A stretch of DNA of 64,000 nt. Origin: Owenia fusiformis. Taxonomy: Eukaryota; Annelida; Polychaeta; Sabellida; Oweniidae. Positions 21,201 through 51,200 of the stretch are shown here, in pieces. The stretch spans positions 28,821,915 through 28,885,914 of the forward strand of contig CAIIXF020000001.1 of NCBI GenBank assembly GCA_903813345.2. Reading direction: 5' to 3'. Numbering within the stretch: position 1 is the first letter of the stretch; the number at the start of each line of letters is the position of its first letter. The translations under genes were made by a program, and so were the position numbers. The notes below the pieces were generated by a model. It saw only the letters and a program-made list of their open reading frames with translations. It made no database searches and was not told the origin of the DNA.

Positions 21201-24200
21201 AAGTTACTGGATGTGTCGGCCAATAGCTGAAATAAATGACAGTTGTTTTACTGTTGTACATGCATGGTCGGTTTTATGTAATATAGGAAGAGGTTTGGGT
21301 TGGATAATCATGTCAATATCTAGATGAAACACTCTGATTTGAACAAGAATAAAATCAATCACTCAATTATTTTACAATTACTCTAAATCATGTTTACATT
21401 CAATGTTAACGATAAATATAAAGTTCCATCAACACATTACATAATATCAAGTTAAACTAAAAATGTACATTATATTTTAATTTCTCTCATACAGTATAAT
21501 CCTATACTGATATTGGCAGTCTCAGAAAGGAAGACCACTGGTAATATAAAGCACTTACCACTAGAAATGACAACTATTCATAATGGGAACGGGGGAATAA
21601 AAATGAAAAATGAATGAACTATATCCGTACCTGTCTTATTTCCTCTATGAAGATGGTGAACACCCACACAATGATGATGATCTCTATGATGTTGAAATCA
21701 GGAGAGAAGCTGACCAACATAAGATAGCTGAACAGCAGAAGGAACACAATATATGCAAGCTGAAACAAGAGAATGTCACAAAATTGGCAATGTTATTTTT
21801 TAACAATGGTATATAGTTCAGGAAACATATTCATTCCATAATACTACTGTTTTCCAATGGAAATATGAAGGAATAAAAATTATAATGAATTGTATTACAT
21901 GAGAAAACTGTATTGTCCTATGGAAAAAATCGTATTGGAGCATATTAACCTATTTTTGGTTTCCTGGTTATTATTTTTTTTTATTTTATCTTTCCAAAAA
22001 AATGTGCATTTGTTAATGTAATGTTTGTATTATCCAAATGTAACATTTTAGAGGGATGTATTATGGAATAAATAGGTTATTTACCCTTCAGTCAGTAAAA
22101 GTAACATACATGTAGTATGAGTCTGAAAAATTAATTGGCACATATGACTAATTGTCAACGACGTGTTGCAATTTCAAAATCCTAACATTTTGTTATAGAT
22201 GCCAAATATGTCATGACCAAAAGCCAGTCACAAAAACAGTGGCTCTGACAATACATCAACACATGTTGGTGGCATAAAATTAAGGTAGCATTCGCGAATT
22301 CAACTGCCAGCTGACGGCTGATGGATTAACATACTATTTTATGCCCAGATCATTTAAATATGAATAGCACCTGCGAATATTAAATTCATATTTAAATGAG
22401 TTGGTCATAATAATGTAGATTAAACCGGCAGCTGGCAGCTGAATATGTGAACACTACAATTTATAGCCACTTAAAATACATTTGTACTTACACAATTATG
22501 TATAAATGTGACCTTGGGAGCATTGTAGAAGTAGGTGAACTTGCTGAATGCTGAGACAGTTGGTTTCTTTGGCAAAGGTTTGTGGAGATCCTCCACTGCT
22601 GATTGGCTTACGGTGGACTGTTGCCTGCTGGGAACAAGCCTGCAATACAGTAATATAATTAAGTGAAATTCAACAAATCGAATGCAAAATAATGATGCAT
22701 TATAAAACAACATTGATGCAATATACCATGTTATATGCACTACACCATATCAAACATGTCTAGCATGTGACATTTTTCACTCTACAAACTCTGATGTGTA
22801 TTATATGCTCAGTGATTAATATCCTTTTATACTCTAGCTCATGTGCACCTGACATAAATTCACAGTGGGTTCAGTGTGCACAAATTTGGCGGGGACCTAT
22901 AATGCCCAAAAGCCACATACCAAATGACCAAATATAAGACCAATGCCATACCAAATGTTTAAATGCCAGACCAATGCTATGATTGGTCAAAAGAATATAT
23001 ACTTCCGGGAAAAAGGGTAACATTTAGGCCCTGAGAAAAATATTCTGAATCAATCTTAAATTTAGGATATGTGTAACTACTAGACCAATGCCATACCACA
23101 AGTGTGAGGTAACATATTTTCCATGATCATTGGAAAGATCAGTGGTGTGATCAGATAAATCAGACCATTGTCATTCATATACCTCAAAAGTCATAATGTG
23201 GGGCCATTCTCATACCAGATCCTAAAAGGGTCCATTGCCATACCAAATGTCAAAAAAAGGTACCCCATGTGCACTGAGGATCCCCATCAAGGTTTATATA
23301 CAGTGAACCCCGGGCAGAGAAAGAAAACTATTCTGCAACAGTTTCATATTGCTGGAAAACATTGTATATTTATCTATGTTTTTTTATATTTTATATGTTA
23401 TTTTATATGAACTGGATACGGCAACCAAGGGGAAAAGCAAAAAGTATTGTCTGTTGATTCAAGCTGGGATATTTATAGAAAATAAGATTTGTATAAATCG
23501 GACTACCAATATTGAAAGAATATCTTTCAGTGAGAACTTAGAGATTTAGCCAAGTAACACAAAGATTCATTTGAAAATACAGAAGTTTACAGTACTTTGG
23601 CCTTACATTAAACAATGGAGTATTTTCACTGTGAAGACACATCCAAGTAAAACCAAGTGAAAAATTATTCTATATTCAACTCAGTATATGAGATTGGACA
23701 TAAGAAAGTTACCAAGTGTGTTTTGAATGCAATACCACAAAAGGAGCTTACATTCAGTCAACACTCACAGATGTATCTCAAGTTCACAATAATAAATACA
23801 ATTAAGATATATTTTAATTAAACAATGGGGTATGAATACAAACTAATATAATATCAGAAGACAAGGGTATGACTTAATTTCAAATCATTAGTCATAATTA
23901 ATTAAAGCCAAAAATACATGGAGGTCACCTTATGTAATTTAGCATACTACTCCCTTTGGCAACATATGGGTACATGGGATTGTGTTGGGACTATATAAGA
24001 GGGTTCAATTGTTCTATTCATCAGTCTCTCAGTAGCTCTACACAGATACACATTCAACATGCAGACCGTACTCGAAGTTTTCGTAGGATGCATCGCTATG
24101 GCCATGGCCAGTGACTATGCCACGTAAGTAAATTGATGTTTTACATTTTTGTTATTTGTGCCTTGCTCTAGTTATCAACATATCAAAGGCTGCACAAGCA

Positions 24201-27200
24201 CAACCCATACTGATCATGATAGCCTTGAAAATGTCTTGAATAACAAAAACTGAATTGATCCTGCCATTTTTTCTCTAATATTTCAATCATTAGCTATCTA
24301 TATTAAGTTGTTTTTTTTAAATATTCAAACAAAATGTTTTAAAAACTTGATAGTGAAAGCGTAACTCTCTTTTGAAATAAGAGAGTTTAATCTAATTGAA
24401 TTGTTCATAGGGGTCAATAATTTGATATGAAATCATGACTCAAAACTTTTTTCAGATATGTATTATTAGTTGTTATTTTTGCAGCAAGGCATATGAGCCT
24501 AAATACCCCACACATGGTTACCAGAGGAACAATGGTTACCATCAGGACTCTTACGTAGCTCCAAGCTATAACAGCCATGACAGCTACAAAGCCCCAAGCT
24601 ACAATAGCTATGAAGCCCCAAGCTACAACACTTATGAGACAAAGAGCTACACACACTGCAACAGCTACGGATATGGATCCTACATGTACAACACATGCAA
24701 AAAATGTGCCACAACTTACAGCAGCTACTTCACATGCCCCAAGACCTACTACCCAGCTGAGACATATGTTGCCCAGCCAAGCTACGGACATGAAAGCTAC
24801 AACAGGCACAACAGCTACAACAGCTATCAAGCCCCTGCCCAGAAATTCCACTTCAAGCACTCTGATGACAGCTGTTTCTGGCAGTGTGATGCCTCTGGAA
24901 AGGCCCTTGCCCGTCCCTGCCCTTACGGACTTGTCTTCGATGAATACAAGGGTGTCTGTGTCAACAAATCCTATTAACTTCATCAAAATTCTCTCATAAC
25001 TCATCATTGGACATTCACTACAAATTAATTTAACTGGCAATTTGAATGAAAAAACCAAACCCAGTATTTTCATGTCATCAAATGCATTTGTCAATTTAAT
25101 AAAGAGAAAATGTAAATATGACTTAATAATATGATTTCTGTTTTCATAACATGAAACACTATTAATAACAAGGAACCTTCCCAGAAAATAAGGAACCTTT
25201 CTCTGGTCAATTCTTGAAAAGGATCTGAATTCTGATTCTCAATTATATTTCATATAAGAATGACAGTACAGATTCATGATCATCCAAGACCTAATGGAAA
25301 AGTCAACAGGACAGACAGGAAGATGACTAAGACCTAAGAACAGACATAATCTCAAATGAACAGATATACTGCATGAATAATGTATGGGATGACAAAATAG
25401 AAACTAGAGATACAACAATTAATGCAGATTTTAGCTTCCTTATTTTCTGTCCTCCATCTGCCTCTTTAAACCTTCCCCACCTCATCATTCCATATCCTCA
25501 CACCCCTCCACACCCTCTTCACCTTACATCCCTCCACCTCCTCCTCACTCCCTCTTCATATCCTCACACCACTCCATATTCTCTTCACATCCTCACACCC
25601 CGTCTACCTCCTCAGATAAATCAACCTACCTCTCTCTGCTTGATGAGGTGCCCTGCCCAGCACTTTGCACTCTTGTCAGTTCAACTTGTTCTGGTTTCCG
25701 ACTTGTGGCACTATTGACAGCACTTGGTGGTGTGGTGCCCTACAAATCAGTATGTTAATTTATTCAACTAGTTTAGTGACTACACTTTTTCTATTCAATG
25801 ATTTCAACAGAATTATTAGGTTGGTCCTTTTGGATGATACTTGATAACTTTTTATTTCAAATTACTGAGGAACAGAGAATGAAAAATCTTACATTTTCAT
25901 GTCTATGAGTATTTTCTATTCTGGGTGCACCTTGAGATTCGACACTGGATGGTGGCTCCTTGAAGCGAATCAGCAACCACAGAAGAGGAGGGCAAATTAT
26001 GCTGACCATCAACTAAAATACAACAGGTTCATTAAAATGTATATTATTACCTAATGATTGTAAGATTTGAGCAAAATGACCTTTGGCTTAGTGAAAGCCA
26101 AGTGAAACCAATGATAACACTTTGCACACATGGAAAATTCAAAAACAAGATTTATAACATAAGCATTCAACTGGTAATATTTTGTAATGGCATAAAACAC
26201 TCAACATGCACTGTAAGACCATACATGCTTAAACATTGCACTGTCAAACTCATGGGTAATCTGTAAATAGTTATTTTCAATTGTCCCACACACTCAAAAA
26301 TGTACATACAAAGTAATTAAATGAAACTTAATTTGAATAGCTAGAAAATCTAAATCTAATCTTTAAACAACCTTTAATCAATTATTTTAAAAACAAAGAG
26401 AATGCTACCTGAAGAAGACAAAATTGAGCTTACCCTCCACCAATGATTGTCCACACTCATCTTTCCCATCCAAATATCATTGAGCATACTTTGGCAACAG
26501 GAGTGTGAGATAAATGTTTGGTCTTTTGCATTTACAGCTAGAGCAATCACAGTGGTGTTACCAAATAGTTCCAGCTCACGTACAAGCAGCTTCCCCGCTC
26601 TCTCTTCATCAGCTGCGAAACATGCATTCAGAACACCTAAAGCTCTCTCTCCCCATTTTCTGAAACAATGTAAGTGGTCATCTAAAATGTTTGGCACAAC
26701 ATTTAACATGTGATCTACTAATTTAGTATTAAATGTATCAGATGGTGCCTTTTTATTAGCTCACTCATCCACTTTTCCGTTGGTCCATCCGTCTGTCTGT
26801 CAACACATTGGTTGCTAATAGGAAATCCTCCATTACAATTGCCAATTCACTTTTAAAATGTGTTTATAGAAAGTCTCCAATTATTCCATAAGTGGTGTCT
26901 CAAAAGCTCGCCTTGTTACAAAATAAAGGCCATTTTCATTGCAGAGAAACCAACTTTTCAGCTCTTTTTTGGTCAGAACTCCACAAATATTCCATCAATT
27001 TGCTTGAAATTGTACAGGTACTTTAGTTTATAGGTTATCAATAATGTCTACAACATCGCAAAGATTCAAAATGGCTGCAATTTTTAATATGCAAAATTTA
27101 TTGTTGAAATACCACACTTCATCTTATAAATCAAAAAACATTATATTGATTTGCTTGAAATTGTACAGACAGCTAAGAGTCGATTAACAATAATATCAAG

Positions 27201-30200
27201 AAGCTTTGGCAAAATATCTAGTAAAATTCAAAAACATGATTCTAATACATGAAGTATAAATGCAAGAGTACATACGTAGATTGTTGCATCATTTCTGCTT
27301 GCAGTTCAAAGTCCTCAGTACATTTAGAACTGAGTTCCTTCAATAGCATAGAGGCTGTTAATGCAGCTGCAATAGTATCCTAAAACAACAGCAATTATTT
27401 CATTTTGAAACCTACCGTATAAGGTTCCTGGCTAAAGGTGGAATGCCAAAAATATTAACACAATTGAACATGTTGAACATTGACTAATTTACATACTTTT
27501 TGTGGCTTGGTTGAATGGCTATGAATCCCAAGTTCCAATGTGTCTCATCAAGAACACGATAGAGTGACAAGGATTATGTCAAGCATAAAAAATTCACTTC
27601 AATTTGATAAACTTAGGTGGCGAAGTGTCTAAGGGTCAGTCATGTGACACAAAACAACGGTCATGTGACACAAAAACAACAATTCATTCACCAGATGGCG
27701 TAGTTAAAAGGAGGTCTAATTTACGACAAAAAAATGTTTAGCTCAGCTTGAATTTTGCTCTCGCAGTTAATCAAAACTGAAACTTCTTTCGTCGATATTG
27801 AGGTGAGTGATTTTTTCAGACTCTGGTATTTTAACAAAAGTAAGTTCAGGTCATAGCCATTCTTCAGGGCAGGTTTGAGGCACCAACGATTTATTTTGGA
27901 GTTATTCCCGATTTACCGCTTATCCACGTTTAATGGAGTCTTACACATAATCTGACTGCTGAATATTTACAAATACATGTACCCTGTCTCTTATTCTATT
28001 CTACACAAATGCAAATGACTGTAAGCTGTATGACATTGAGCTCAAACAGTAACCAGGGAATCGTAATATCTAATCTAGTCTCACTATTAATTGCATATTA
28101 AGTTTGAAATGCTAATATTTGTCTTGAACTTCTTACCTTGCCCTCTTCCCAGAATGTCATGGCTAAGTCATCTCGAGCCATCAAAACACACCAAATGAAC
28201 AGCTCTCTTGCAGGCTCCTCAAATGCATACCTGGATTTTTGCAAGTCTACACAAACAAAAAAATGAGAAATTATCATGAAGACGTAATAGATAAACATAC
28301 CAGGGTTTTTCACACGAGTTAGAGAGGAGGTTTATGTCACATGTTATAGTTGATTTATGTTATATTGTTTCAAATAAGTGCAGTTTACCTTATCCTTTGA
28401 GTGAATTTAAATTGTCCATAGTCCTTAATGTAGAAATTAACAGTTGATTAGTTTTATTGTACTTTAATCCTTTGACATAAACTCATGTTGTTACACTGAG
28501 TAGAGTATAGAGTAATATAGTGACCTAGCTGAGTTATGAAATCAGGAGAACAGACTGAGTGAGATGTGAAAGTGAAGGAAGAAACTTGTTCAACAAGTTT
28601 AGGGAGAACTGTGGATTTTGCAAATATGAAAGACTTATATACATCTTCATGTGTAGAATGGAACACTATGAACATATCAGTTATCTGGAATAACCTTTTG
28701 ATGTCGTGCCACGTATATATTTATGTCGTATGTTAAGACTGTTATCTGTGTATTAGTGCATATGGAGAGCGATTCTAACATCCTGCATTTGTGTTGTACT
28801 TAGCTATGGGATACACGCACCCTTAGTTTTCCACTGACGGAATAGTGGATCACTGTGTTTGTGTTAGGTATTGCGTAGGATGAGGATTCCTGCCATACTT
28901 GTGAAGCCGTGTAGCTCCATGGGAGTACTTAAAGCTTGTGACGTAATACAAGTTTTGTGTTATGGATAACCGAAGAAATCTATGTGTAACATTTACTTCG
29001 TTTGTGACTGGATTTGTGTACAAGGCATTTATTTCCTTTTATGGATTAAACTATATGTGTCTGACTTAATGGATATAATACCGTCTTTGGGTTCCAGGAC
29101 TGTAGTTGTGGTGTTATATAACCACTTATGTGTTTTTATCAAGATATTCACCTTTTATTCCTTCACCTTGTGATTTTTAATATACTTTTAATTCTCAATA
29201 GAATATAAAATTAATTATATTACATTAAATGTGATATCTGTTATCTTTTTATTGAAAAGAACCTTTACTCCGTGACAATGGGGGCTCGTCCGTGCCAAAA
29301 AGATAGTAGATGTGTTTAATTATGTCATAGATATTATGCATTTAGTTTTAGTGTTGTTTTATTTTGTAAGATAGCAAGTAATTTATATGTACTATCAGTT
29401 TGTAATATCTTAAATTCATTTTAAACATAACTCAATAATGTAATTCTTAATTTGGTCAGAATTAATTCATGTTTTCAACATTACTTAATTCTCAAACATG
29501 GGGGTAATGTCACATGTTATAGTTGATTTATGTTATATTGTTTCAAATAAGTGCAGTTTACCTTATCCTTTGAGTGAATTTAAATTGTCCATAGTCCTTA
29601 ATGTAGAAATTAACAGTTGATTAGTTTTATTGTACTTTAATCCTTTGACATAAACTCATGTTGTTACACTGAGTAGAGTATAGAGTAATATAGTGACCTA
29701 GCTGAGTTATGAAATCAGGAGAACAGACTGAGTGAGATGTGAAAGTGAAGGAAGAAACTTGTTCAACAAGTTTAGGGAGAACTGTGGATTTTGCAAATAT
29801 GAAAGACTTATATACATCTTCATGTGTAGAATGGAACACTATGAACATATCAGTTATCTGGAATAACCTTTTGATGTCGTGCCACGTATATATTTATGTC
29901 GTATGTTAAGACTGTCATCTGTGTATTAGTGCATATGGAGAGCGATTCTAACATCCTGCATTTGTGTTGTACTTAGCTATGGGATACACGCACCCTTAGT
30001 TTTCCACTGACGGAATAGTGGATCACTGTGTTTGTGTTAGGTATTGCATAGGATGAGAATTCCTGCCATACTTGTGAAGCCGTGTAGCTCCATGGGAGTA
30101 CTTAAAGCTTGTGACGTAATACAAGACTTGTGTTATGGATAACCGAAGAAATCTATGTGTAACATTTACTTCGTTTGTGACTGGATTTGTGTACAAGGCA

Positions 30201-33200
30201 TTTATTTCCTTTTATGGATTAAACTATATGTGTCTGACTTAATGGATATAATACCGTCTTTGGGTTCCAGGACTGTAGTTGTGGTGTTATATAACCACTT
30301 ATGTGTTTTTATCAAGATATCCACCTTTTATTCCTTCACCTTGTGATTTTTAATATACTTTTAATTCTCAATAGAATATAAAATTAATTATATTACATTA
30401 AATGTGATATCTGTTATCTTTTTATTGAAAAGAACCTTTACTCCGTGACAGTTTAAATGGAGAAAGCATATTACTAATATATTTTCACAATACTATATAC
30501 ATAAAACAAACCAGCATTCATCATAAAGAAGTACTGAACTGAAAGTCAAGTCAGATAAGGTTACCAATGAACAAAGAACACATTCTGACTCCTGGGGAAA
30601 TTTCATATACACTGTTATGCAAGTATTTTGAATATTAAACCATTCTAAATATCAATAATACTCATCATTTACTAATCAATCTCATCATAAAGCTTGATTA
30701 TAGACCTTAACTTACCACCAGGAGGGGCTCCACCATAACTTTGAACCATCATGGCATTGTCAACTCCTCTACCTTCTTGGGAATATTTCTCCTCCAGATA
30801 ATCAGCTGCATTGACAGTGGAATACATGGGTTCCCTCAGATAGAGAGGATAATAGAAGTCTCCCATTAACTCTTGGATCGCTTCTCCAACGTGTGAGAGA
30901 TTGAAGTATTTTTTCTCCTAAATAAACAGATACAATTTTCAAATTATCTATTCATCCATCACCAGTACACGCAAATACATATCAGTACTAGTGATTAACT
31001 TATACTTGTACATGAATGGCAATCGAATTTTGATTGAGTCAAGTTTTGTGGATACAATGATATGTTAGTCAGGGAATTTGTTGATGTTGTGTTAAAATCA
31101 CAAAAGGAATAACACTTTGCTAGTATAATAACATCTGTAACATATTGGTGCATTTGTCATCTTGTGTTAGAAGAGTCATCACTTATTATCAGTGTGACTC
31201 AAAGTGTAAATACTTGATTAAATACAGACGGACGGACGGATGGAGGCGTTCCCTACATCCCTCCGAATGATAAATACTTGATGTGATGTGACATTTTTAC
31301 AAAAGGTTTGTGAATTTCTCTATTCCTGAACTAATATTTTGTGTGCATAGAAAAACAATCACTTAAAGCATTTCTAAAAATCCCTCTGTACTTCATCGTG
31401 ATTTAGGTATTACTGTATATTAAAATTAAAAAAGTCCTCACGTTATCTTTCAGTGTTTTATCACTTGTCCTTTCCTTCTCTAATCTGCTCCATACTACAC
31501 TATTTGGAGGAATCTGAAAAAGGAGGTCCAAATATTTACATATATCTTCAAAACTCACAATAATATGACAGAAAGCATAACTATTATATTATTTAAAATG
31601 TTACATTTTTGGAAAAGTACCATATCCAGTTTTTTCAAATCACAATATTTGAAGTAATTGTTTGAAAAGGATTATAATACCATAATCAGACAGTGTGAAA
31701 AATCCTTACATTCTTTGTAGTTAATTTACAGAAAATGAATTGATTTTTTACTATTGTAAAATCAAAAGGGTATTCATCTACTTACACTGTTATACAATTT
31801 CAATAAGGTCTTTATTGAGACAAATTCTTTAATATTAAGACCATTCTCTATGAAGAGTTGTACAAAATTGGTCCTATTCTGTAGCAGGGCTGTGAACATT
31901 ACATCTGTTAAATCTTTGTGCTGAAAATAGAAAATAATATATGTATTTATCCCATACTTGGACGTGTTACAGGTACATAAAGCCGGTTTGTAAAAACTTA
32001 TATTTTCATCAGCGGGCAGATATAGCTTTACGTCCCGCTCTGAGCGGGCAGATATAGTATATCTGCCCGCTACGTCATAATCGCCGCTCGCATATTTGTT
32101 CATAATTTGTAACGTTCGCGTAATGACTGTAAACGACAACAGCGATCTGTTTGATGGTTTAAAAAATGGAAGGAGCATTCACTTAAAAAATTCGAGAAAA
32201 TAAATGTGGGAATATTTGAGAGAACAAAAAAATCCGCCCACGGCCAAGAAAACAAAACTGGACATGACTATTCTAGAATATTTCCACAATTGAACAATGT
32301 GAACCAGATGACCAAGATTGGTATGGGATAAACATATTATCCTATAGTCGGTTCAGGATATTGGGATTATCCCTTGGCCAATATAATATATTTTCCCTCG
32401 GGACCTGCGGCCCTCGGGCAAATATATTATATTAGCCTCGGGATAATCCCAATATCCTGAACCTCATATAGGATAATCTCTATTTATCCTATGCCAAGTA
32501 GAGTTTTAGGGAGATAAGTTGGTAAGATATATCCCGTATTCTGATTTTGAGGTTTCCATATCCTGAACCTCCATATCTCCCGCCATATCTCCCGCTCCAG
32601 GGCATATCTTCCCGCTTCGAAAAAAAAATTGAAAAAATAAGAAAAATTGAAAAAAATAAAAAATGTGAAAAAAATAAAAATAAAATAAAAAATTGAAAAA
32701 AGAAAAAAATAGAAAAAATAGAAAAAAATTGAAAAATGTGAAAAAATTGAAAAAAAAAAAGATTGAAAAGAATTGAAAGAAAATTAGAAAACTCTTCTTG
32801 GTATAGGATAAAGCAGTTATGTACGATCGGTTTGGATATTGGGTTCATCCCTCGTGAGATATGCACATCTACCTTCGGTCCCTATGGTCCCTCAGGTAGA
32901 TATGCATATCTCCCTCTGGATAAACCCCATATCCAAAACCTCCCAGTACATAACCCTTATATATCTGAAAGTTCTATATAAAGAATATGTGTTCATTTTC
33001 ATTTCTAATTTTGGACATTGCTTCAATTTAAATCTTCAATATTAGCTTTTATTCGCAAATGCAAATAGCGGCTTATTTAACTCATTTAAATATGAATAGC
33101 ACCTGTCGTGCGTCCCGTTAGTTCCTAGCTCTCGCCCCAACCCAGTAACTAAATAATGATTTCATCTGGTTATTGAAGCAGCAACTGATACCGACTATCG

Positions 33201-36200
33201 AGGTGTTCGAAATTTTAAATAGCGGAAGTACACCTGGGGCATGCACATAGACGCAAAACACATTTTAAGTTTGTTTGATCATGTGACAATGGCATAAAAG
33301 TCATGTGATCACTTTTAGTCGACAAATGGGTTGTTCGATATTGCAACTTCAAACTGACGGAATAATTTATGCAAATCAATAGGTTAATCAGGTAGCCATT
33401 ATTTGCATTGGAGAATACAAGCTTAGTTAAGATATCTTGATTCTTTGATTGAATCATGAAATTAGGATTGTAAAGGAGACATTGATATGCTTTTTGCAAT
33501 TATTGTTTCTTATACAGCCTCTATTCTTTGAAGGAATCTTCATATGATTGTATGACTTTGAGCAGATTATTTCTACTTTGGTTCAGAATGATATCAATTT
33601 CACTCAAACACAGACAGATGATCGACCTTTCTTATCAGCCACATCTTTAATGTGTTCATCTCAATAGTTTCATCATAATTTTATTTGAGTTATTCGTATC
33701 ATTATTTTATTTGACTTGAGAATGGGTCTGATTTGGCAATAAAATAATTCAGTTTTTCAGACTCTCTAGCGCAGTGCAGTAATTGATTTAGTAATTCAAT
33801 TTCTAAACATGTTTTACTAGTTCAGTATAGCTTCCTTTTAAGTTATGAACTAACAACATTATTTATAGAAAAAATAGAGTTAAGGTAAATTTTGTCTTTT
33901 CTAGGATCAGATACCATAAATTATGCATTCATTTTTAAGAAGTTATACAAGCATAAAAATGTCAAACTAAACATGCAGCATGCGTGACAATCTGACCTTA
34001 CCTCCCATTTTTTATCATCATGGAATATATCACTTTTGGCGACATCTATTCTGTTCCAGGCCAGAGCAAGCTTCAACTGGTCTCCCTCATTACTCTGATT
34101 GGCTAGAATAAAATATAATGAGAATATAAATTGTGAATCAAAATAATGTTTAGAGTAAAAGAACAACATACAGGGTGTCCGGAAAGTAAAGATACAAATA
34201 CTCTTATTTTAAGAAATTTGGGTTTTTTGAAATGAAATTGCTACAGATTGTAGAGGAACAATATTACAATATATCTATCAACTTTCATCACATATAGTCT
34301 AAATGTATTCAAGTTACGGTTGTTATGGTTACGGATGTGAGAGGTATGCGGAGCAGTTCCAGAACAACGCTAAAATGTGAAACTTTGCTAAAAGACAACG
34401 ATTTGAAACAGTGTTTTTTGTTGTATTTTCTATCTATGTTTTGTTTTGTTCATCATTATATTATTGCTGCCATAGTGTTTTCTTTTATATAATGATCTCA
34501 TTGCTACATATCAGAACTATGTTATGTCACTAACCAGTATAATCAAAGAAATATTATACAAGTGCCAAGAGGAATGGTCCCTGGCCATTAGTAGGAAAGT
34601 CAATATTGCATCTCCACAATGCACCAATTCACAAAGCAAAAAACAAATCTTACAATGGAGTGTCTTGACATTAAACCTTTCTATACAATGCCCCATATTC
34701 CCCTGATAAAGCCTATTAAGACTTCTACTTAATGACCATTTGAAAGCAATATTTATAAAAAGTTCAACATACAAATGAGACTCAGCTGGAAGCCAATGTT
34801 ATCAGCAATCTGAGAGATGGACAGCAGCGGTTTTGTCAGGTCTTTGAATCGCCGGTCAAGATACACCAAGAATGTATAGTTAATGGGGAAATACTAAATA
34901 TTCAATGATAGTAGTAATATGAAATGATCAAATAATGTTACAGTACTTATCGGTGTGCTGTTGTGGTGCAAAATTTGATATAATATAGGAATAGATGGTG
35001 GAGTGCCAAGATCATATGAGCAGGAAAGAGATTTGTAAGTTACACAGTTGTGACGTTGCTCCACTTACCCTCGACTCCCGTTACCATAACAACCATAACC
35101 TTTTCATTTTGAAACTGAAAGTCCTGACAGTTGCAGGATATATTGTTATAATGTCATTCTACATTCTGGAGCAACTTCATCTCATAACAGGTAAATCCCT
35201 TGAAATTAGAGCATTTGTATCTTTACTTTCCGGACACCCTGTACATAACAAAAGTTATAAACATACAGAACTTTCAAGGAGAATTTATGATTTAGGGGCA
35301 ATTTTAGCAAAAAAAACACTGAAACTGTGAATGCTCCTTTATATGTGTTTGATATAAAATGTAAAAAGGTGACTATTTTCAGGCTCAAAGTCAATATCAA
35401 AAAGAAATAATTTCAATAAATCTATTTAATAATAGTGGACCATAAGCTATTAACATAACATTTGTTTACAATTGATCATTTACTAGCACCTTGTGCTATT
35501 GATTGTGATATCTTTTGACCTTTACTAACTCAGAAGCTAAAATGTTAATGTGACTTGTGGTCCATTAATTTCAAACAAACAATAGTAAGCAACAGCAACG
35601 CTGTATAGTATATCCCATTAAACATTACAAATTAGGCAATATTTTAAACCAAAAAGACACATGTTTATAATGCTATTGATAATCATATAAAACATTTCAT
35701 TATTGCCATTTTAATGCTAATATGGACAGTCAAAATATATTAGTTAAAAGAGAACCTTATACAAACATGTAAGAAGTAATGTTGGACTCAGAGACAGACA
35801 GACGGATAGAAAGACAGACATCCTGTTATTCTATTAATCCCTAAATTTCAAACTTGTCAGGGATAACTAATGAAGTACAAAGAACAATAGATTTTAATGT
35901 CAGATTCCGTGTAAAAATTTACAAATGTGAAACAGTGATTCATACTTTAGAATGACTTATAAACACCTAAAACATACAATATTGATAAAGATCAAACACA
36001 ATATGGGGAGCTTCTTACCATTGTCATTCATGGCATTGTTTGGTTTATTATTACTTATCATAACATATACCGAAAATAACTTAACAACAAGAAGATCAGG
36101 ACTTGGATCTGAAATCAGTATGTGTAGGCATTTACGATATTTGTCCGATGAACATAAGCCAAAAAGTAAAAAAACTGAACTTAAAATGAATATCATTGGC

Positions 36201-39200: not shown

Positions 39201-42200
39201 GAATTGACTGACTGACTGCACCTATTATCATAATCTTACTTTTTCACTTTCCGTCCCAGCTGATCAACAACCTCTATCTCTTCTTCTTTAGTTTTTGAGT
39301 ATGCATAAGCAAGTATATCAGCTGCTCTGCCTGAGCCCTCCACTATAACAGCTGGGGTGTTGTTCTGCATGGCTGATTTCACTGTCTCCAGTGTCCCAGG
39401 TCCTCCCTCCAGTACCACACATACAATAGGTATAGACACTGCATCTAAAACACCACACACAATATAGGTATAGACACTGCCTTTAAAGAGGTATTTGAGA
39501 CATTTCAGACTGTATATAGACACAACATATATGATAGACGCTGCATTTACCTTAAATACCACATATTCATTAGGTATTTGAGACATTTAAGACTGTATTT
39601 AAGACACAACACATACAATAGATGCTGCAATTATCTAAAATACCACATATAAAATAGGTATATACACTGCCTTTAAAATACCACAAATGCTTCTTAACCA
39701 TATGACACTAGCATATAAACTTCAACATGCTATATTTCAGTTATCGCCTTGACATACAGACTGATAGACAGAAATGTAGAGAACTGCAATAGCTCATCAA
39801 GTGAGTAAAACATTGGGGGTTCAGGCCCGTAGCCAGAATTTTCCAAGGGGGGGGTTCGTTTTTCTAAAAAATTCTAGGGGGGTTCACTTTGGCAAATATG
39901 GCCAAAAATCACTCAAAAATTAGTCAGAATGGTGAAAAACTGCATGATTTTGAAAGAAATTTTGGCCAGGGGGGGTTCGCCCGAACCCCCCGAACCCCCC
40001 TGGCTACGGGCCTGGGGTTTGTATCAAAAATAACAAGACACACAGTGATAAATATCACACCTTTTATTGAAAAATTCAAAAAGGCCTAATAAGAGCTAAC
40101 AAGATCTTGGCACTCGTCTCCTATTGCATCCGTAAAAAGTTCAAGTTAACAGGTAAGCCGTTTTCATGCCAATGACAAGATTTATGTAGCCACTGACTTC
40201 CCATATACCCAACAGCACAAGATTTGTCAAAGTGCCCCCCGCCTGGGATTTTTTTAAAAGAGTACCCCTCCCCTTGGCAAAAGCTGGCTACAAGGCTGAT
40301 ACTGGCCCCAATTTTTAAAATCCTTAAGCATCGTCAGAAATCAACCTCTTAACCATTATAACATAATATATCCAAAACCCACTCAATGATTATTTCACTA
40401 ATTGATATTTATAGACAAGTTGATATCAAATGTCACATGAGTGGATGGATGTTGATATCTGATGTCTACAAGTCATTGGAATTATATTATAGGAACTAAG
40501 GCTCAATTAAGAAATAAGGATTTTATCTTGAGATAATCACAATATTTTTAAGTGAGGAGCATAAAACTTGTGGAGATTAAATGCATTATATATGCAAACC
40601 ATCATACTTTTGACATTAGTAAATTTCTCAGCATCATACACTTATTTTTGGCAATCATAAATTTGTCAGATGATTTTAGTTAAGGATTAAAATCTCTGAC
40701 CAAAAACATGTGCAAACTAGATAATGGCAACTCCGCGGAGTAGCAAATCCCAACGAACAAAATATCAATTACCGAATTCCAATCAATTATACTCATTACT
40801 TTGGTTAAAATTGAAAAATTTAGATTTTAGAATTGCGAATTCCTGCAAAGCAGCCATTTTGAATTTTCTGAGGTACAAATCTGAAAAATAATAGCATAAT
40901 TGTGATCTACTCCAAAATTCCTTCAATTTGAGTATAATATAGCCATACTTTGAAGGGATCGAAAAATGATTGCGAAATCATACATTAGACGACCATTTTG
41001 AATTTTACGAGGCTCGAATCAGAAAAAAATACAATATTTGCAATCTACTCTTAATTGCCTTTCATTTGAGTATAATAAAGCTATACTTCAGAAAGATCTA
41101 AAAATTAGCGAAAATTTCTGTTTTCCTGACCCCCCCATACACAGCCCCTGGGGGTCAGGATGAAAAACACGGAATATATGTGAAATAGATAGATGTTGCG
41201 AATATACTACCAAAATTTCAAACAATAATATTAATTACTTTGGTTTAGAATGAAAAATTTATGATTTTTGCGAAAAAGTCCCGTCATTTTTAAAGCGGCG
41301 GCTATCTTGAAAATTTTTTTTTTGCGTAAAACTATTTATCAATATACATCTTTCCACCAAATATGAAGAAAATCCGTCTACTAATATTTGAGTTATCTTC
41401 CGGACGGACGGACGAACTGACTGACGGACTGACGGACGGAGGGCTTCACTATATCCCTACCGAACTTCGTTCGTTGGGATAATCATTTCAAATCATCAAA
41501 ACAGAAAATATTTATTTGGTTCATATAAATGTTCCATGCTTATATTAAATGCATCATACAACATGAATAAATCACTAGAAAATATTTTTCAATGAAAAGT
41601 GTACTTTTTGAATTACATCTTTAAATAGGAAATCTTTCATCAGGAATATGTTATCACTCGTAGTATTGAAATGCATAAATATAACATTTTTTTATAGATT
41701 AACAATTTATTTCATCATATAAATATTTTCATACATTATAGCTTGCCAATTACTTTACTGGCATTATAGGCTAAGCTGAACAACATAATATTAAGTACAA
41801 ATGTAAATGTATGCAACAAGGAAGCATAAAGGCAAGATATGTAAAAAGGTGTGAAATTGGACAGGCTTGGGTTTATGTGTCATGGTCTCGGTGAGGGAAT
41901 AGTGGGAATAGGTAAAACTTGCATGGAGGGTCCCATAGGGAAATATAACTATAATGTTATGTGTTCTTTATCAAAAAGTTGGTAACAAGAGCAAAAAGTT
42001 CATTATTTTGTGCTAAGGATAGTATGTCATATTTCAAAAAATCTATAGATTAGTTTTTATTCTTTATGGTTATAGGCTTATAAAGTCTCAACAAGTGTGA
42101 GAAAAGTGTTTCTATTTTGTGAAATGTTTGAACAATAGAGGAATAAGTGTTTAGGCGTTTCAGGTACGCCGCAGTGGAGTGTTTCAATATAAGTGAAGTT

Positions 42201-45200
42201 GTGGCCATATAATTGAGCTTTTGTGAGCAGGTCAACTCTGAACCTATTAAGGATTATTTCTTGATTTCTTATTAGCTTTAACTTAGTAGTTGGGTGAAAG
42301 TCAGGCTTCGGAATTTTCTTTTTTTGTAAATGATTGAAGCTGAAAAGTGTTTTACAATTTCTAATACGCTTAGGTAGCTTATTCCAATGGGAGATGACAC
42401 TGAGGATAGACAATTTTCTAAATTTGGTTGAGCATTTGGTCGGTATTTAGAAGTGAAGATTGGATCTGAGTTCTTGAGGGTTTTGAATTCTCAGAGGTTC
42501 AAATATCTGTCACATAGCTTTGAGTGAGACTATTTTTAACTCTAAACATAAATTTATTTATTTGCAATGACTGCCTTGTATCTAGATCAAGCAATATGAG
42601 GGTATTCTTTACTTTAATTAAACTAATTTATTTTATAAGGGCAGCTTGATAAAATAGTTTATCTAATATGTTAAGGATACATTGAGTAGAAGAATCATAC
42701 AGTATTGCCCCATTTTCAAAGTGTGCAGGAATGAAAGACATGAACATTTTTTAGAGGACATTAGAATTGAGTTTCTTTTGAAGTGATCTGAGAGGGTCCA
42801 GAAGCTTGTTTACTTTGTTTGTTATGGCTAATATATGTTGTTTGTGAGATAAATGCTCATCAAAAGTATAGCCTAAGTGTTTATGCGACGTTTCCCTTTT
42901 TATTAAAGCATTACTCATATAGGTATTGGTTACTTGACCAATTTTAATTTTAGAATTAGGAAAAACTATTTCGACACTTTCTTCAGGGTTAAAACAGAGT
43001 TTCCATTTATACTCTATTGCTTGAGTGACTTTAGTATCAATTTCAGAAGGATTTTTAGTACTAAATGGGAAGTAAATGGAAGTATCATCTGCATTTATAA
43101 AAACAATCAGTATCTATGTTATCAGGAAGGTCATTTATATATATTAAAAAGAGAAGGGGACCTAGAATTGAGCCTTGTGGTACTCCACTTTTGATAGCAT
43201 GCATTTGTGATAGACATGAAGAGGATCCCGAAATGTTCACTCTAACTCTTCTTTCGCAAAGATGAAATTTAAGGAGATTAAGAACCTGTCCATGCAGTCC
43301 ATATGATTTTGATTTGAGTAAAAGAAGATTGTAGGGTATGCAGTCAAAAGCTTAGACGATATCAAGAAAAAGTGCTTTAACTCCCTCATCTTGGTCAAAA
43401 TTTGATTGAATAAGATGTTCGATGGCAACAAGTTGGGATTGGGTACTATGACCCGGCAAAAATCCAGATTGAAATTTGAATAACAAATCATTTAAAATGA
43501 GATGTTTTTTAATTCTGTTGGTAATTATTCTTTCAAAAAGCTTTGATATACAGTCTAAAAGGGTGATAGATCTATAATTTGATAAGTCTGACTTACTATT
43601 TTTCTTTTGGATTGGGCACTACCAATCTTCAAAGTTTTAGGAAATACACTATACTGCAGTAGGATGTTAATCTAGACAACAGCAACGCCAAAGCGTAGCA
43701 AATCCCATCAAACTGCCATGGCTGGCATTTTTACAAACAAAGTATATAGCAAAAATGGCAGCCATTTTTCAAAATAGCCACTGTTTACCAAATGTGTCAG
43801 TAGATAGTGTGCCATGCTTATAGTATTCACATACCAAATATAAACAAAATCACTTGACTACTTTTCAAGTTATAGTAAAAAACGTTAAAATGGCAGCCAT
43901 TTTTCAAAATGGCCACCTTCTACCAAAAGTGTCATTAGACAGTGTGCCATGCTTATAGTATATGAACAAATCGCTCCACTATTTTTCGAGTTATAGTAAA
44001 ATACGTTAATATGGCTGACATTTTTCAAAATGGCCGCCTCCTACCAAAGGTGTCATTAGACACTGTGCCATGCTTATAGTATTCACATACCAAATATGAA
44101 CAAAGTCGCTCCACTACTTTTTGAGTTACAGCAAAAATCGTAAAATAACGAGTAAAGGATGCCATTTTTCACGATGGCTGCCATGTGCTTCTTTAATATC
44201 TACATTTCTAGCTATTTGAGTTATTGCCCGGACGGTCGGTCGGACGGACGGACGGACGGACGGACGGATGTACAGACGGACGGAGGCATTCCCTATATCC
44301 CTCCGAACTTCGTTCGATGGGATAATAACTTAGTCAAGGGATGAGCGATAGTATGAGCACTTAAATGGAGCATTTTATTAGTTATGATATCAGGGCCACA
44401 TGTCTTAGATGTGTCCAGACCGGAGATAAGTTTCATGACCTTGGATATATCAGTTCTAATTGAAATAAGCAGGGAGTCTGTTTGCATTGGGAAGGCTGGT
44501 TTGTAATCACTTGAGATATTGTGGTCATATTTTCCAACAAAAAAAGTTAAGAAAGCCATTGACCTTATCAGTGTTTGTATTTAAGATTTTCCCATTAGTA
44601 TCAAATAGAGCTGGAATACTGTTTGAATTGTTGTTTAAATATAACATGAAAACTACACAACACAAAATGGAACACCACTTTGTCAATGGGACTTGGTATG
44701 TTTCTGTTAATATACACCCAGCATGTGAGTCTCACACAGTCTTAGTATAAATAATTAGTGAATGGTCCTTGGATATAATATTTCATAAGTGTAGGCTTAA
44801 TAGCAATACCAGAGAGTGTACTATATACAAAACTATTCATAATTCTCTACATGAATATATTAACCTAGGATGAAGACCTATCTGTACATGTAATAAAATA
44901 AAACAATAATCTACAAATAAAACTATAATGATGACAAAATGGATGTGCTCTAACACTAAAGTAAGGATAATACTATCATGCTTTATTTGTATTGCTATTA
45001 TCGGCATACTTTCACGGACAATGATGGTGCAATATGTACTTGTGCTCACAAACCATTCATATCATATGTATGACAGAACCATGAACAAACTAGTACATGA
45101 TTGGACAAATGATGAGGAAACAAGAACTTATAAAACTGAAGAACATGTGTACGGTGAGTTTTCATTTGTTAAAAATCCAAAATGATATGAGTAAGGGATG

Positions 45201-48200
45201 AGTGCTCAGTATACTTTTTGATTGAATTAAGGTTTTGGGAAGCTTCAATTTACAAGATCTAATTACTTCAAAAATCATAGGGTCAGTCTCATAGTAATTT
45301 TAAAATCCCATTCCCATAATAACATCTTTAATTTTTCAGATAAACATCATCACAAAGGTTGCAAGAGAGATAAAAATTCACCATCATATTTAAGTGGAAT
45401 CTTTACCGAGCCATCTGTTCAACTTGACTTTGATAAGAGAATTTTCTCATATAACGTAAGTGTTGACTTTGAGACCTTCTCTGTTAGGATTTGGTCAGTT
45501 GCAGAACAGTGTGACAGTGAAGGATGGATCAGAGGAAAGAAGGGCAAAATAAGGTAATCTGGAAAAGGCACAATGTGGCAACCATGTTTATGGTCTTGCC
45601 TCAAGCTATTTTAATTGTACAACCACTTTCTGAGTATAGTCAAGTATACTGGCCATAGTCATTATGTAATGACATGGGAGACTTCTATTATATACAATGA
45701 GACATATGAGGCTAATATAAATAAATCAATAAATTATTTGAATTATTTATCCAGAGATACACATTGGGTGAAAAAGAGTTCCATCTGTATAGTACTGTAC
45801 AACAAATTCCTCATCCCCCTAAGCAGGTATCCAGAATCCGTACCTCCTTCTTCCCCCTACTATAACCAATTTGGAAGTGCCCGATTAAACTGAATCACGT
45901 GATCTAATTATGCGCAATGACTTAAACATGATTTCTGTCGCAGTGTTGCGACAGCCAATCAGATTGTGAGTTCTTAATCGGGGAAATGGTTACTGCTTAT
46001 TGCAGGGGGTAAAAAGAAAGAATATATTCTGGATTTTGAAGCCCTGTGATCGGAGGATGCAAATTCCTCCAAATGACTAAACTGATCTTAAAATGTATAT
46101 TTTCAAATTCTGTATAGAGGGAATTATGTGCTGGGACTCCAGACAACTGTGATTGAAATTGTGGTATTTGATGTAAGTAAAGACCCTCCAGTGAATACCA
46201 CACGATATATACTGAATATAAGCCGAGAACCAAGGAGTCTGCTACATCATGAAGATTTCCAAACAGAAGACTTGAATAAGTTGAAGGTTTGCATGTTGAG
46301 ACAGGATTGTGACCGGCTGATCTACCCTAATGAGCCATGTGGACTGCAAAGGATGGGTTACAACTCATGGCAATCTACAAAGAACCATGTCAAAAATTTT
46401 GCAGACTGTCTCTCTGGGAATGAGCCAGGTAAGAGGTGGATTATACAACAATAACTCTGAATCATCAAACATAGAATATTTTTGAATATAGAAGTCTATA
46501 GCAGATTAAAGAGATTTGTTCACATTGAGATTTGTTCAGATTAAAGAGAGGTCGCTGTAATTCACTTGCTTCCAATGAAACCTGAGTTGGGTTTATAAAC
46601 CTTTTCCCTATCATAAAATATAGAATTATGATCATAATTATATTCAGGGGCCTGGTTGGTACCATGTATAGACTGCAATGATGATAAGAAATGCTATTGG
46701 AATGAAGCAATATGGCAGCCAAACAACTGTTCCTACCATAGTCCTACCCTAAAACAAATACAACACAGTTTTCAAGGAAAAAAGGTAAACATTCCCTCTA
46801 GTTACATAGTACCCTTTCCATTCATTCGACTTTGCTTCAGAAAGTATTTTATAGCTAGGCTCTGCGCACTGGGTAGTTATATAGTCCAATTCACTACAAA
46901 ATACTTATGCATCGATTCACCTGTAACATTATTTTCATTTCTCTTAGGTTCTTTTCCTGGGAGATTCAACTCTCCGTGGAATGATGTATTTTCTGATTGA
47001 AGCTGTGAACGGAAGCCTCACTGAGTGGGAGAAGTCCCATGATGTACTGGTGTACAATTCTCTGAATCAAAACCATACTTCAGTGAATTTCATCTACTAC
47101 CCTCAGTTGCCAGGAATGGCTGAACATCTCATGGATATCAAAGAGGCTCTTACATATCTTGTTAAAATGTAGGTGCAATGAAACCTGTAAAATGAAACAC
47201 CTCTAGAAATGGAACACCTCTCTTAGTTGAACACTTTTCAGAGGCCCAAGACCAATGTTTTACATGTTAGACTTAATGTTAAATGAACCTCTATAAGTGG
47301 AACACCTCCCAAGTGGAACACTTTTAAGAGGTACAAAAGGTGTTTCACTTCAGGTTTTCTAGATGAATTGAAGACCACCTTCACACTTAGTCTAATAAAA
47401 TACACTTAGTATGGCACGCAGATTATCTGGATGTTTTTGAATATAAATTGATTACTGTTGAATTTATTACAACATCTAATTTTGCGATACACAATCACAA
47501 TAATTGCCTAACATATTGTTATGATTATGACTTAATGCCTTTAAAAACTGGTATTTTGGCCATAACTTGAATACCGCTTGACAGATTTCATTCATGTTTG
47601 ATTCATCATTTGGATTTCAGGTCAGGCCAACTTAGAAATAACAGCGATACTGTGCTAGTCATAGGACGGTATACAAGTATAGATAAGAAGGATTTTCCAG
47701 TTCTGATGTCAACATTAAAGCATCTAGGGCTAACTGGTATAAGGATAATCAGGAAAACAAAGGGATGTGATAATTGTGAGGTTAGTCGACCCTTTCCTTC
47801 CCCATTCCTCATGTCTGGCATGTTATAATAATTAAATGTGGCATTAACATGCAAAATGTCACCACCAGCCATTTGCTACAGACACCAACCACTGAATGCC
47901 AAACACTGTCCACAAAAATGTTGGAGACTATAACAATATATCTCCGCCACAAAAATATATCACCACTTGTGGTAGTGACAAAACAACAAGTGTGACGAAA
48001 CTTCTCTAAATCTGCAAATGTGCTTTTTTATATTAATCAAATAGAATCCTTACATTCAGACACCATAATATCCAGTCCATGATAATATGTACATTACTTT
48101 TTCAGAAAAATGCAACTGCTTCGGCTATACTGAATGATGATATAACAGCAGAAGCTAAACGTTATGGGTTCGAAATCCTTCAGACATTTCCTATCATTAT

Positions 48201-51200
48201 GTCAAGGTACAAAGATGTGACGTATAGCAGTACATGTGCATTGCATTACCATACAATCGAAAAGGTACGCACCATTTGTCGTTATTATTTTAAAACCATA
48301 TGATTTAAACTTCATTTATCACTTTACTTTAGATTAAAATACATGAACACTTACATTGCTATTGAATACTAATTAATCACGAGTATATGATTTACTGGTA
48401 TAACCTATCGATTTTTAGCTTCTCAGTCAAGTCTATCCCCGGGAGCCTATCCTATTACCATGTGATTTTGTTCATTAATAGGTGTCACATACGATGGAGA
48501 GAAATGTAACAACGATTAAGAATGATCGCCAGACAAGTCAACAGCATGATATGTACCATGTATATGGAGATGTCATGGCTGCCTACTCAAACATGCTTAT
48601 AAGCATGCTTCATGGACATTGGTCCAAAAATGGTGATGTCATGAACATACCTTAAACATTTTAAATTCAAAACCATTTCCTACAGATTTAATTCACATCA
48701 GGAAGACACAATTATTTACGACCAATTGTTTTAACAAACAGAATCGTTGTAAAAGATCTGTTGTTATGCCAAACATTAAACATAACCAATAAGGCGAATC
48801 ATATTGAAAGATCAACATCAATTTAAAACCAGCAGCCATTTTGAGGATTAACTTTCAAAAGAGAATACAGATATACATATACAGATGAATCTAAATGGAT
48901 GGAGGCATTCTCTATTTCCCTCATAATAATCTTGTATATGTGATAAATAGTGGGTAAAAGATCCCTGAATCTTGGGAGTCAATAGTCATATGAGAAGTGA
49001 TCTTACCATCTCCCGTATTAGTCTTCATGACAGATATTGCACTTTCAAGGGCAGTCCTGAATTTGATCTCAGTGGCAAATGTGTGTTTAGTTCCATTATC
49101 CACAAGTATAAAATGTGAATGATTCAGATCTATAGGACTCTCTTTTCTCCTTGGTTTTGCCTCAAGTTTATATGGGGCTGGCCAGCAACCCTGAAAAATA
49201 TATGATATGATGATCAGTAGTGCAATATTAAGGATCTCTCTGAAAGACATCAAATCACTACAGTATTACAGTTACAGTATTTATTAATGGGGGTATATGT
49301 TTCCATTAACTCATTTGCTGCTTTCAGTCAGCTTGTGTTTACAAAAGAATATCGATAAAAGATATGAGGTTGTAGATTGTGGTCCTTGACTTTAATCAAA
49401 ACGGGATAGAAATGTCGGAGTTTAGGTTCTAGTCTATGGATTTGTGCACTGTAATCATGTATCTACATGTATATGTATTATGAAACCCAAGACACTTAAA
49501 TAAACTTACATGTACAATTCTACAATCATGCCTATGTTTTGTATACCTACATTTTTATTTATGACACTTTCCACATTGGCTACACAACCCCAGGGGGAGA
49601 TTCCTATGCAAGTGACTTTGTTCTTGCTGGTAGCTGCAAAGGAGTAATCCCTCACAGCCTCCCCTACATGCTTCATTACACCTGCATGCATTCCCCCAGT
49701 AATAATCCAGGCACCTGGAATTTAAATGTTATTTAATTAATATACCTCAATAGAAAACAAGGCATTAACATGCAAAATATCACCACCTGCCATTTGTTAC
49801 AGAGACCAACCACCCAACACCCAACAATGTCCACAAAATGTTGGCGACTATAACAATACGATGTATCATATGTATCATATCTTTTGCAGTCCTATTTCAT
49901 TGAAATTTTCAGTCCTTGCTATTATTCACACGTAGCTGGTGAATATGCATTACATACACTGAATTAAGATTATCATGAAGTATTTTTTGAAATATGTGTA
50001 CGAACCAGTGCTCTGAGCTGCTTTCATCAGACCCCTTCTGAATACCTCCTTCAATCGAGGCTTCATGTGGAAGTTCTTAGCTCCTCCAGTTACAGAAATC
50101 AAAAGATTTGGCTTCTCCAACTGCCACTGTCCCATTAACAGCTCAATCATTGTCTTCATCTCAGTCTCAGCATCAACACGCACATACTGCAAATAGATGT
50201 AAGACATATACAGGGTGTCAAAAAACAACGGCACCCCTCTCTACAGCAAAAAGTACTGAATGCTACATGGTGTGTTATACCTCATTTTAAAGACAATTGA
50301 ATTCTGGAGTTACCTGAGAAATTTCAGCTTTATATCATATAATTTTACAGATTTACAGCTGATTCTTAGTAGTTGGTATGACCACCAGTTGCTGCTCAAA
50401 CAGCAGCTTATCAGGACAGATATGATTTCAATAAAAATTCACATAAAAGTGTAGCATTGCATAATCCTCTTCGCTCTTTGTCCATCAGTTCCTATACCCT
50501 GTTTTTCAGAAATGAACCCATATGTTCAGTGCAGTTCAAATCTGGGGTAATTCTTTCATATTTCACTTTCTGAAGATTTGACTTTTAACCAGTAACAGAG
50601 CAGCAAACAAAGTACCAAAGTAGCAAACTTTGAAACAATGTAGCTTTTTTAATATTAAGTTTTATTAAATGAAATTTGATGAGTAACTCAAGAATTAAAT
50701 TATCTTTCAAATGAGGTATGACATGATATGGAACATTAAGGACTTTATGCTGTAGAGGGGGGTGCCGTTGTTTTTTGACACCCTGTACAGTACTACTATT
50801 ATCCACTGAAGAGTAATTTGTATAATGTGGAACACTGGATAGTGTATTTCAGGGTTATTGCCTCTTGGTTTACTTGTTCTTTCAGGATGTAATCCATTGA
50901 ATCTATTGATGCCGTTGGACTTATTGATATTGTAGTAACGCTAGAATTAGTTTTGGGGCAACTCTTCACCGAGTTCAAACAGAAGATTGGAAACATGAGA
51001 GGGAATTCAAAAATTTGCTATTGTTAGATTTAGGAGTTACCTTATTCTAGCATCAGCCCAACTTTGATTATTTTTAAATCAAAATATGAACAAGCCCTTT
51101 TTAACTAATTTTTTAATTATTTTAAAACACCAGATTACCAAGCATTCTCAAGTAAAATAAATCAATTTGTGCTACTTATGATCTACAATCACATAAAAGT

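Follow-up and report, generated by a model that had tools for sequence, protein, structure and literature searches.

The stretch of DNA under study, 64,000 nucleotides from Owenia fusiformis (the window), carries on its minus strand a gene for a TRPM2-like channel, and three smaller genes are located on the plus strand within its introns: a Tyr-rich gene with a partial CBM14 domain, a B4GALNT1-like transferase gene and a CPED1-like gene. An earlier note had described three unrelated genes lying antisense in separate introns of one TRPM2 gene, and the coordinates and strands of our gene models agree with that description. However, the interval that it assigned (22,640-49,006) is too short, as the host model exceeds both ends (10,982-51,480), and its reference to a mollusc TRPM2 was mistaken, the source being an annelid. 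The genome searched was the Owenia fusiformis assembly of 498.3 Mb in 525 contigs (contigs are labelled C1-C12, and L numbers denote extracted loci); the published assembly of this species is reported to contain 26,966 genes and to span 505.8 Mb, with 12 scaffolds at chromosome scale (PMC9977687). If contigs C1 to C12 are read as chromosomes 1, 10, 11, 12, 2 and 3 to 9, the 38 forkhead matches in the searched genome fall on chromosomes 1, 2, 3, 5, 6, 7, 8, 11 and 12, which are the nine given for the Fox genes of Owenia fusiformis, and tandem groups occur on chromosomes 5 and 7, where foxQ2 is reported (PMC9539403).

The TRPM2-like host gene

Open segments on the minus strand between about 51.5 and 11.0 kb are collinear with TRPM2 from Nematostella (6co7), covering residues 28-1549 of 1560, and after their concatenation 6co7 ranked first among the listed solved chains (E = 1e-206); the seven domains listed for this match followed in order, five of them individually above threshold. 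Joining the best splice pairs led to a model of 27 exons that runs from 51,480 to 10,982 in a single open frame of 1,346 amino acids before the stop. A phase-compatible GT-AG pair was found at all 26 junctions, in a splice search that is permissive by design and that offered close alternatives at several junctions, so that some boundaries are best guesses. The 5' limit at 51,480 is the edge of the open frame and not a located start codon or a true 5' end. Pfam matches to LSDAT_euk (3e-80), TRPM2 (4.8e-70) and Ion_trans (5.6e-13) were obtained, and thus the LSDAT, TRPM2-like and ion-transport domains that mark a TRPM2 are all found in the host. A preliminary Pfam scan of 18,300-33,299, covering two of the three minus-strand frames with stops as X, had given one weak match and was superseded by the concatenated open segments. 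The model argues strongly that the exons flanking the nested genes belong to one gene.

Exons 23-27 (10,982-13,233, minus strand) encode a C-terminal NUDT9H domain, which matched that of 6co7 with E = 8.2e-65 when a query was employed in which exons 23 and 24 were joined differently from the 27-exon model. The order of LSDAT, TRPM2, ion-channel and NUDT9H domains is therefore the same as in Nematostella TRPM2. In contrast, the Nudix box reads KASLTHDA in the Owenia host and KAEFGEEA in 6co7, and the glutamates of this box, which we take to be the catalytic ones, are not conserved in the alignment. The host NUDT9H thus lacks the Nudix-box glutamates of an active chanzyme and, because of this loss, hydrolysis of ADP-ribose by this TRPM2 is probably not to be expected, as judged from the predicted protein.

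The genome has at least three TRPM2-like groups, and a paralogue from one of them was located on C10 at 28.23-28.24 Mb, where matches to query residues 85-1038 follow the same exon order and where no match past query residue 1038 was obtained in the extracted stretch. At the positions homologous to introns 4, 6 and 13, the gaps between matches amount to 808, 311 and 1,340 bp, respectively, and no open segment resembling a nested gene was seen among the segments of at least 85 amino acids listed for these gaps. Such short gaps indicate that the three insertions are not common to the paralogue or were lost there.

Some other elements lie in or near the host gene. Intron 10 contains a near-identical direct duplication (28,329-28,628 and 29,502-29,801; spacing 1,173 bp), the copies being 99% identical over the 300 nucleotides shown, which suggests that the duplication is recent, and intron 19 harbors a minisatellite (17,105-18,253) with about 33 copies of a 35-bp unit. 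Reverse-transcriptase-like fragments are found on the minus strand at 13,827-15,140 in intron 22 (RVT_1, 2.4e-07), at 42,078-44,580 in intron 4, where the resemblance to the first fragment was noted by eye, and at 53,269-54,264, part of which matched RVT_1 below the cut-off (0.0033). A gene for a GH3-domain protein (58,690-59,913, plus strand; PF03321, 4.6e-58) adjoins the TRPM2 gene.

Three antisense genes in the longest introns

The 26 introns of the TRPM2 gene sum to 36,458 bp, and the nested genes reside in the three longest of them. Intron 4 (39,445-49,006; 9,562 bp) contains the CPED1-like gene together with minus-strand reverse-transcriptase-like fragments recognized by eye, intron 6 (34,103-38,669; 4,567 bp) the B4GALNT1-like gene and intron 13 (22,640-26,440; 3,801 bp) the Tyr-rich gene. 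All three genes are intact, each lies wholly within one host intron on the opposite strand, as is characteristic of opposite nested genes, and their exons show zero overlap with modelled TRPM2 exons. The probability that three of three would be antisense by chance is 1/8.

The Tyr-rich CBM14 gene unit occupies 23,844-25,148 (plus strand) at its widest extent of similarity among copies, with a TATA box at 23,992, exons at 24,059-24,123 and 24,485-24,977 and a poly(A) signal at 25,098; for exon 2, an alternative acceptor at 24,470 is likewise in frame. The product begins with a sequence like a signal peptide, contains Tyr-rich repeats and matches CBM14 weakly and in part (E = 8.9e-5), features that it shares with invertebrate matrix or glue proteins of the Tyr-rich CBM14 type, and it may serve as a tube protein. 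Homologues, sought in Pfam and in the Owenia genome only, include seven other close copies, and comparison of the conserved part of the window copy with each of these gave dN/dS ratios of 0.14-0.38. By these ratios, the window copy is a functional coding gene under purifying selection. The motif TATAWAAG is present in seven of the eight close copies, the one in a myosin gene being the exception, and A(A/T)TAAA occurs 115-157 bp past the stop in all eight. The earlier claim that only the small gene has a clear TATA box and poly(A) signal is therefore right for that gene insofar as both signals are conserved among its copies, but poly(A)-like motifs also follow both larger genes (at 37,627 and 48,775), although they mean little in DNA this AT-rich.

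The B4GALNT1-like gene (35,952-37,196, plus strand) is a single exon encoding 414 amino acids with an N-terminal hydrophobic segment and the GT2 catalytic domain (PF00535, 1.6e-10) expected for B4GALNT1. The only solved relative found was B4GALNT1 itself (9h6j; E = 1.5e-19, chain residues 239-453 of 499), with which the nested gene has the GT2 catalytic region in common. It differs from 9h6j in being shorter (414 versus 499 amino acids in the chain), intronless and part of a large family in the Owenia genome. Just before this gene, an inverted repeat with 187-nucleotide arms that are 75% complementary is located in intron 6 (34,169-34,355 and 35,057-35,243).

The CPED1-like gene (44,928-48,655, plus strand) consists of eight exons, with a start codon at 44,928 or 44,931, and encodes 532 amino acids when counted from the second of these ATGs. 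A hydrophobic N-terminal segment is followed by a cadherin-like domain (PF12733, 1.2e-5) and an NXPE-type C-terminal domain (PF24536, NXPE4_C, 2.5e-8), and no match to PC-Esterase was returned by Pfam. The same succession of these two domains occurs in the CPED1/NXPE family; we assume CPED1 to be the proper name for this combination, and the nested protein is presumably shorter than CPED1. This gene and the B4GALNT1-like gene have intact frames and domains and may be functional, selection having been computed for the Tyr-rich gene only.

The best 19-residue hydrophobicity means of the N-terminal stretches are 1.42 for the Tyr-rich, 2.30 for the B4GALNT1-like and 2.28 for the CPED1-like product. 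Such segments in all three predicted proteins fit the earlier proposal that the products enter the secretory pathway.

Relatives of the nested genes in the Owenia genome

Each nested gene is a member of a family that is scattered over several chromosomes. For the Tyr-rich gene, the genome search revealed eight close copies, including the one in the window, and one distant match on C3. When the surroundings of each copy (about 10 to 40 kb) were searched for a host, with a depth that was unequal between loci, nesting was firm for four of the eight, where both flanks gave evidence of the host (TRPM2, myosin, FDXR and HAUS5), and probable for three, whereas the remaining copy, at 20.108 Mb of C10, showed no host in about 14 kb of either flank. 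The myosin host matches profile positions 174-359 on one side of its antisense copy and 436-528 on the other, and FDXR has exons on both sides in the order of adrenodoxin reductase (E = 1.3e-39) around a copy in sense. HAUS5 contains two copies: the second is antisense, preceded by profile positions 231-349 and followed by 576-642, and the first probably lies in sense in another intron, upstream of profile position 231, where the preceding coiled-coil-like exons were assigned by eye and the search did not confirm them. Two further antisense copies probably lie in an iRhom gene, which emerged only after 20 kb of extra flank had been added: the rhomboid core is found downstream (E = 2.2e-38), and an exon for the first transmembrane segment, placed upstream by eye and in order, reached 0.6 bits and was not confirmed by the search. 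Among the seven firmly or probably nested copies, five are therefore antisense (TRPM2, myosin, the second HAUS5 copy and both iRhom copies) and two in sense (FDXR and the first HAUS5 copy). Pieces resembling F5/8 type C lectins occur on the minus strand in the probable iRhom intron region (L005, 3,516-3,800; L015, 141-1,181) and are perhaps further nested genes; those at L015 match PF22633 (7.4e-08), and the L005 piece, without a Pfam match, looks alike by eye.

Pairwise comparison of the conserved part of the Tyr-rich copies (28 pairs) gave dS values of 0.05-0.55 and dN/dS ratios of 0.04-0.38. Their introns, by comparison, reached a mean alignment score of 0.48 over the 300 bp near exon 2, versus 0.455 after shuffling (one shuffle per pair), with the C5 pair (0.95) as the exception. 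The two HAUS5 copies (L006, 3,739-5,261; L007, 551-2,300) are mutually inverted, with a dS of 0.10 and promoter and exon blocks that are 91% identical, and their introns cannot be aligned; alike exons next to unalignable introns fit either exon-wise homogenisation by gene conversion or turnover and replacement of the intron. A shared mobile element as the carrier of the Tyr-rich genes was considered and rejected, as mainly the gene unit was common to the loci in pairwise comparisons; no further search for element ends was made. Besides the gene unit, there was one 420-bp match between the window (22,898-23,311) and the HAUS5 locus, together with short scattered matches.

B4GALNT-like sequences were encountered at no fewer than 18 places, including the window, and none has an internal stop. 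Hosts were surveyed at 14 of these 18 places (the window, L012, L013 and L018-L027, with two at L025), with about 4 kb of flank on each side of the extracted ones. Besides TRPM2, VPS54 is a probable host (L022), and a DMGDH-like gene (L027) and a minus-strand gene (L013) are possible ones, while no host appeared in the flanks of the other nine loci. VPS54 was matched by Pfam on one side (2.1e-4) and its right-side exon was seen by eye, without confirmation by the search; the B4GALNT-like paralogue is in sense there. For the DMGDH-like gene, the host match is on one side only and the left exon was again seen by eye and not confirmed. The probable nesting in VPS54 suggests that nesting is not a special trait of the Tyr-rich family. 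The DMGDH-like gene also contains three similar tandem exon-like segments (L027, 6,009-8,040, minus strand; FERALFF, YERGMYF and FERALYF), possibly mutually exclusive exons.

A 149-aa part of the CPED1-like protein, used as query, matched seven places besides the window, four on C3 and one each on C5, C11 and C12, and no host was seen in a coding scan of two of these seven (L010 and L011). Relatives of two of the nested families thus lie in other hosts in both orientations, some of these hosts being only probable. Such mixed orientation does not support a strict antisense rule and argues against a required antisense role.

Interpretation of the nested arrangement

We consider it likely that these are ordinary nested genes, namely independent transcription units that are tolerated in long introns, and that their arrangement is a by-product of the dispersal of multi-copy families and not a regulatory device. 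Accepting this, three unrelated, self-sufficient small genes would have come into long introns of one TRPM2 gene as multi-copy families dispersed into intron-rich genes, and each would form its own transcription unit, transcribed separately and without regulatory coupling to the host. Their splice and poly(A) signals would be present as the reverse complement on the host pre-mRNA and would be removed with the intron, and the genes would be tolerated because they lie wholly inside introns. Animal genomes commonly contain opposite nested genes. The nested share of all genes is reported as about 6% for Drosophila, 2.1% for C. elegans and 0.5% for human, often with the nested gene on the opposite strand (PMC3786989), and 567 opposite nested pairs are reported for C. 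elegans (PMC12274878). As in the pairs 2mit in tim2 of Drosophila and ceh-10 in polq-1 of C. elegans, a host intron encloses a complete coding gene of opposite orientation. Unlike those pairs, the Owenia locus has a single host with three nested genes, unrelated to one another and each in its own intron, and one of the nested families has copies in other hosts as well, some of them in sense. A limited literature search on annelid nested genes and on Tyr-rich chitin-binding tube proteins yielded no description of such an arrangement.

Several points weigh against this explanation. Independence of transcription was deduced from sequence; three antisense nested genes exceed the expected number, which a rough estimate with assumed genome-wide rates puts at about 0.24 for 36 kb of intron; all three predicted products look secretory; and evidence for selection covers the Tyr-rich gene only. 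By the same kind of rough estimate, three nested genes in one host would be unusual for any one gene and expected for a few genes per genome.

A further possibility, which we regard as tentative, concerns the Tyr-rich CBM14 genes alone. They may constitute an intron-dwelling family of compact promoter-plus-gene units that spread as DNA copies into introns of broadly used genes with no relation to one another (TRPM2, myosin, FDXR, HAUS5 and probably iRhom) and that stay functional under purifying selection, with exons and promoters but not introns kept alike, possibly by gene conversion. An excess of nesting over chance is not claimed for this family, as the share of introns in the genome was not available as background and search depth was unequal.

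That the nested genes are linked to induction of the host appears unlikely. Experiments in C. elegans provide a precedent for a locus of this geometry (PMC12274878), and the Tyr-rich gene, with its conserved TATA promoter, lies shortly before exon 14 when read in the direction of the host, ahead of the channel-domain exons. However, nested pairs are reported in the same study to be on average less coexpressed than neighbouring pairs, and related Tyr-rich copies reside in hosts as unlike as FDXR, HAUS5 and myosin. Repression of TRPM2 by antisense transcription of the nested genes, through collision or double-stranded RNA and leading to mutually exclusive expression, is less probable still. It would agree with the antisense position of all three genes and with the finding for C. 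elegans that opposite nested pairs are, on average, less coexpressed than neighbouring ones (PMC12274878), but nested genes are described as often opposite in general (PMC3786989), and relatives in sense in FDXR, probably in HAUS5 and, for a B4GALNT-like gene, probably in VPS54 indicate that orientation is not kept as a rule. For interference as for host induction, a precedent exists, without support at this locus. The suggestion that the genes share one open domain at this locus in a tube-forming, secretory tissue is very improbable: Owenia builds tubes and all three products have hydrophobic N-termini, but secretory genes make up a sizeable fraction of animal genes in general and each nested gene has dispersed relatives elsewhere. 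Finally, we give hardly any credence to an assembly join or a mis-model with TRPM2 exons from separate transcripts, which the earlier note had named as what would overturn its proposal, since at the sequence level, on which the model with its alternative junctions rests, near full-length collinearity with a solved TRPM2, phase-compatible junctions throughout, one open frame, a window without any N and the shared exon order of the C10 paralogue all speak against it.

Ordinary nesting thus remains our preferred explanation, and the locus is a real, mostly ordinary case with one notable family-level pattern. It provides a clean example of several unrelated genes inside one host gene in Owenia, whose lineage is reported as sister to all remaining annelids (PMC9539403). 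Published stage-specific RNA-seq data for Owenia make interference between host and nested genes testable, and one small secreted-protein family that recurs, in either orientation, within the introns of unrelated genes offers replicate host-nested pairs with similar promoters and different hosts. If the Tyr-rich CBM14 genes are indeed an intron-dwelling family, the introns of such broadly used genes would house a set of tube-protein genes that is dispersed and yet co-regulated.

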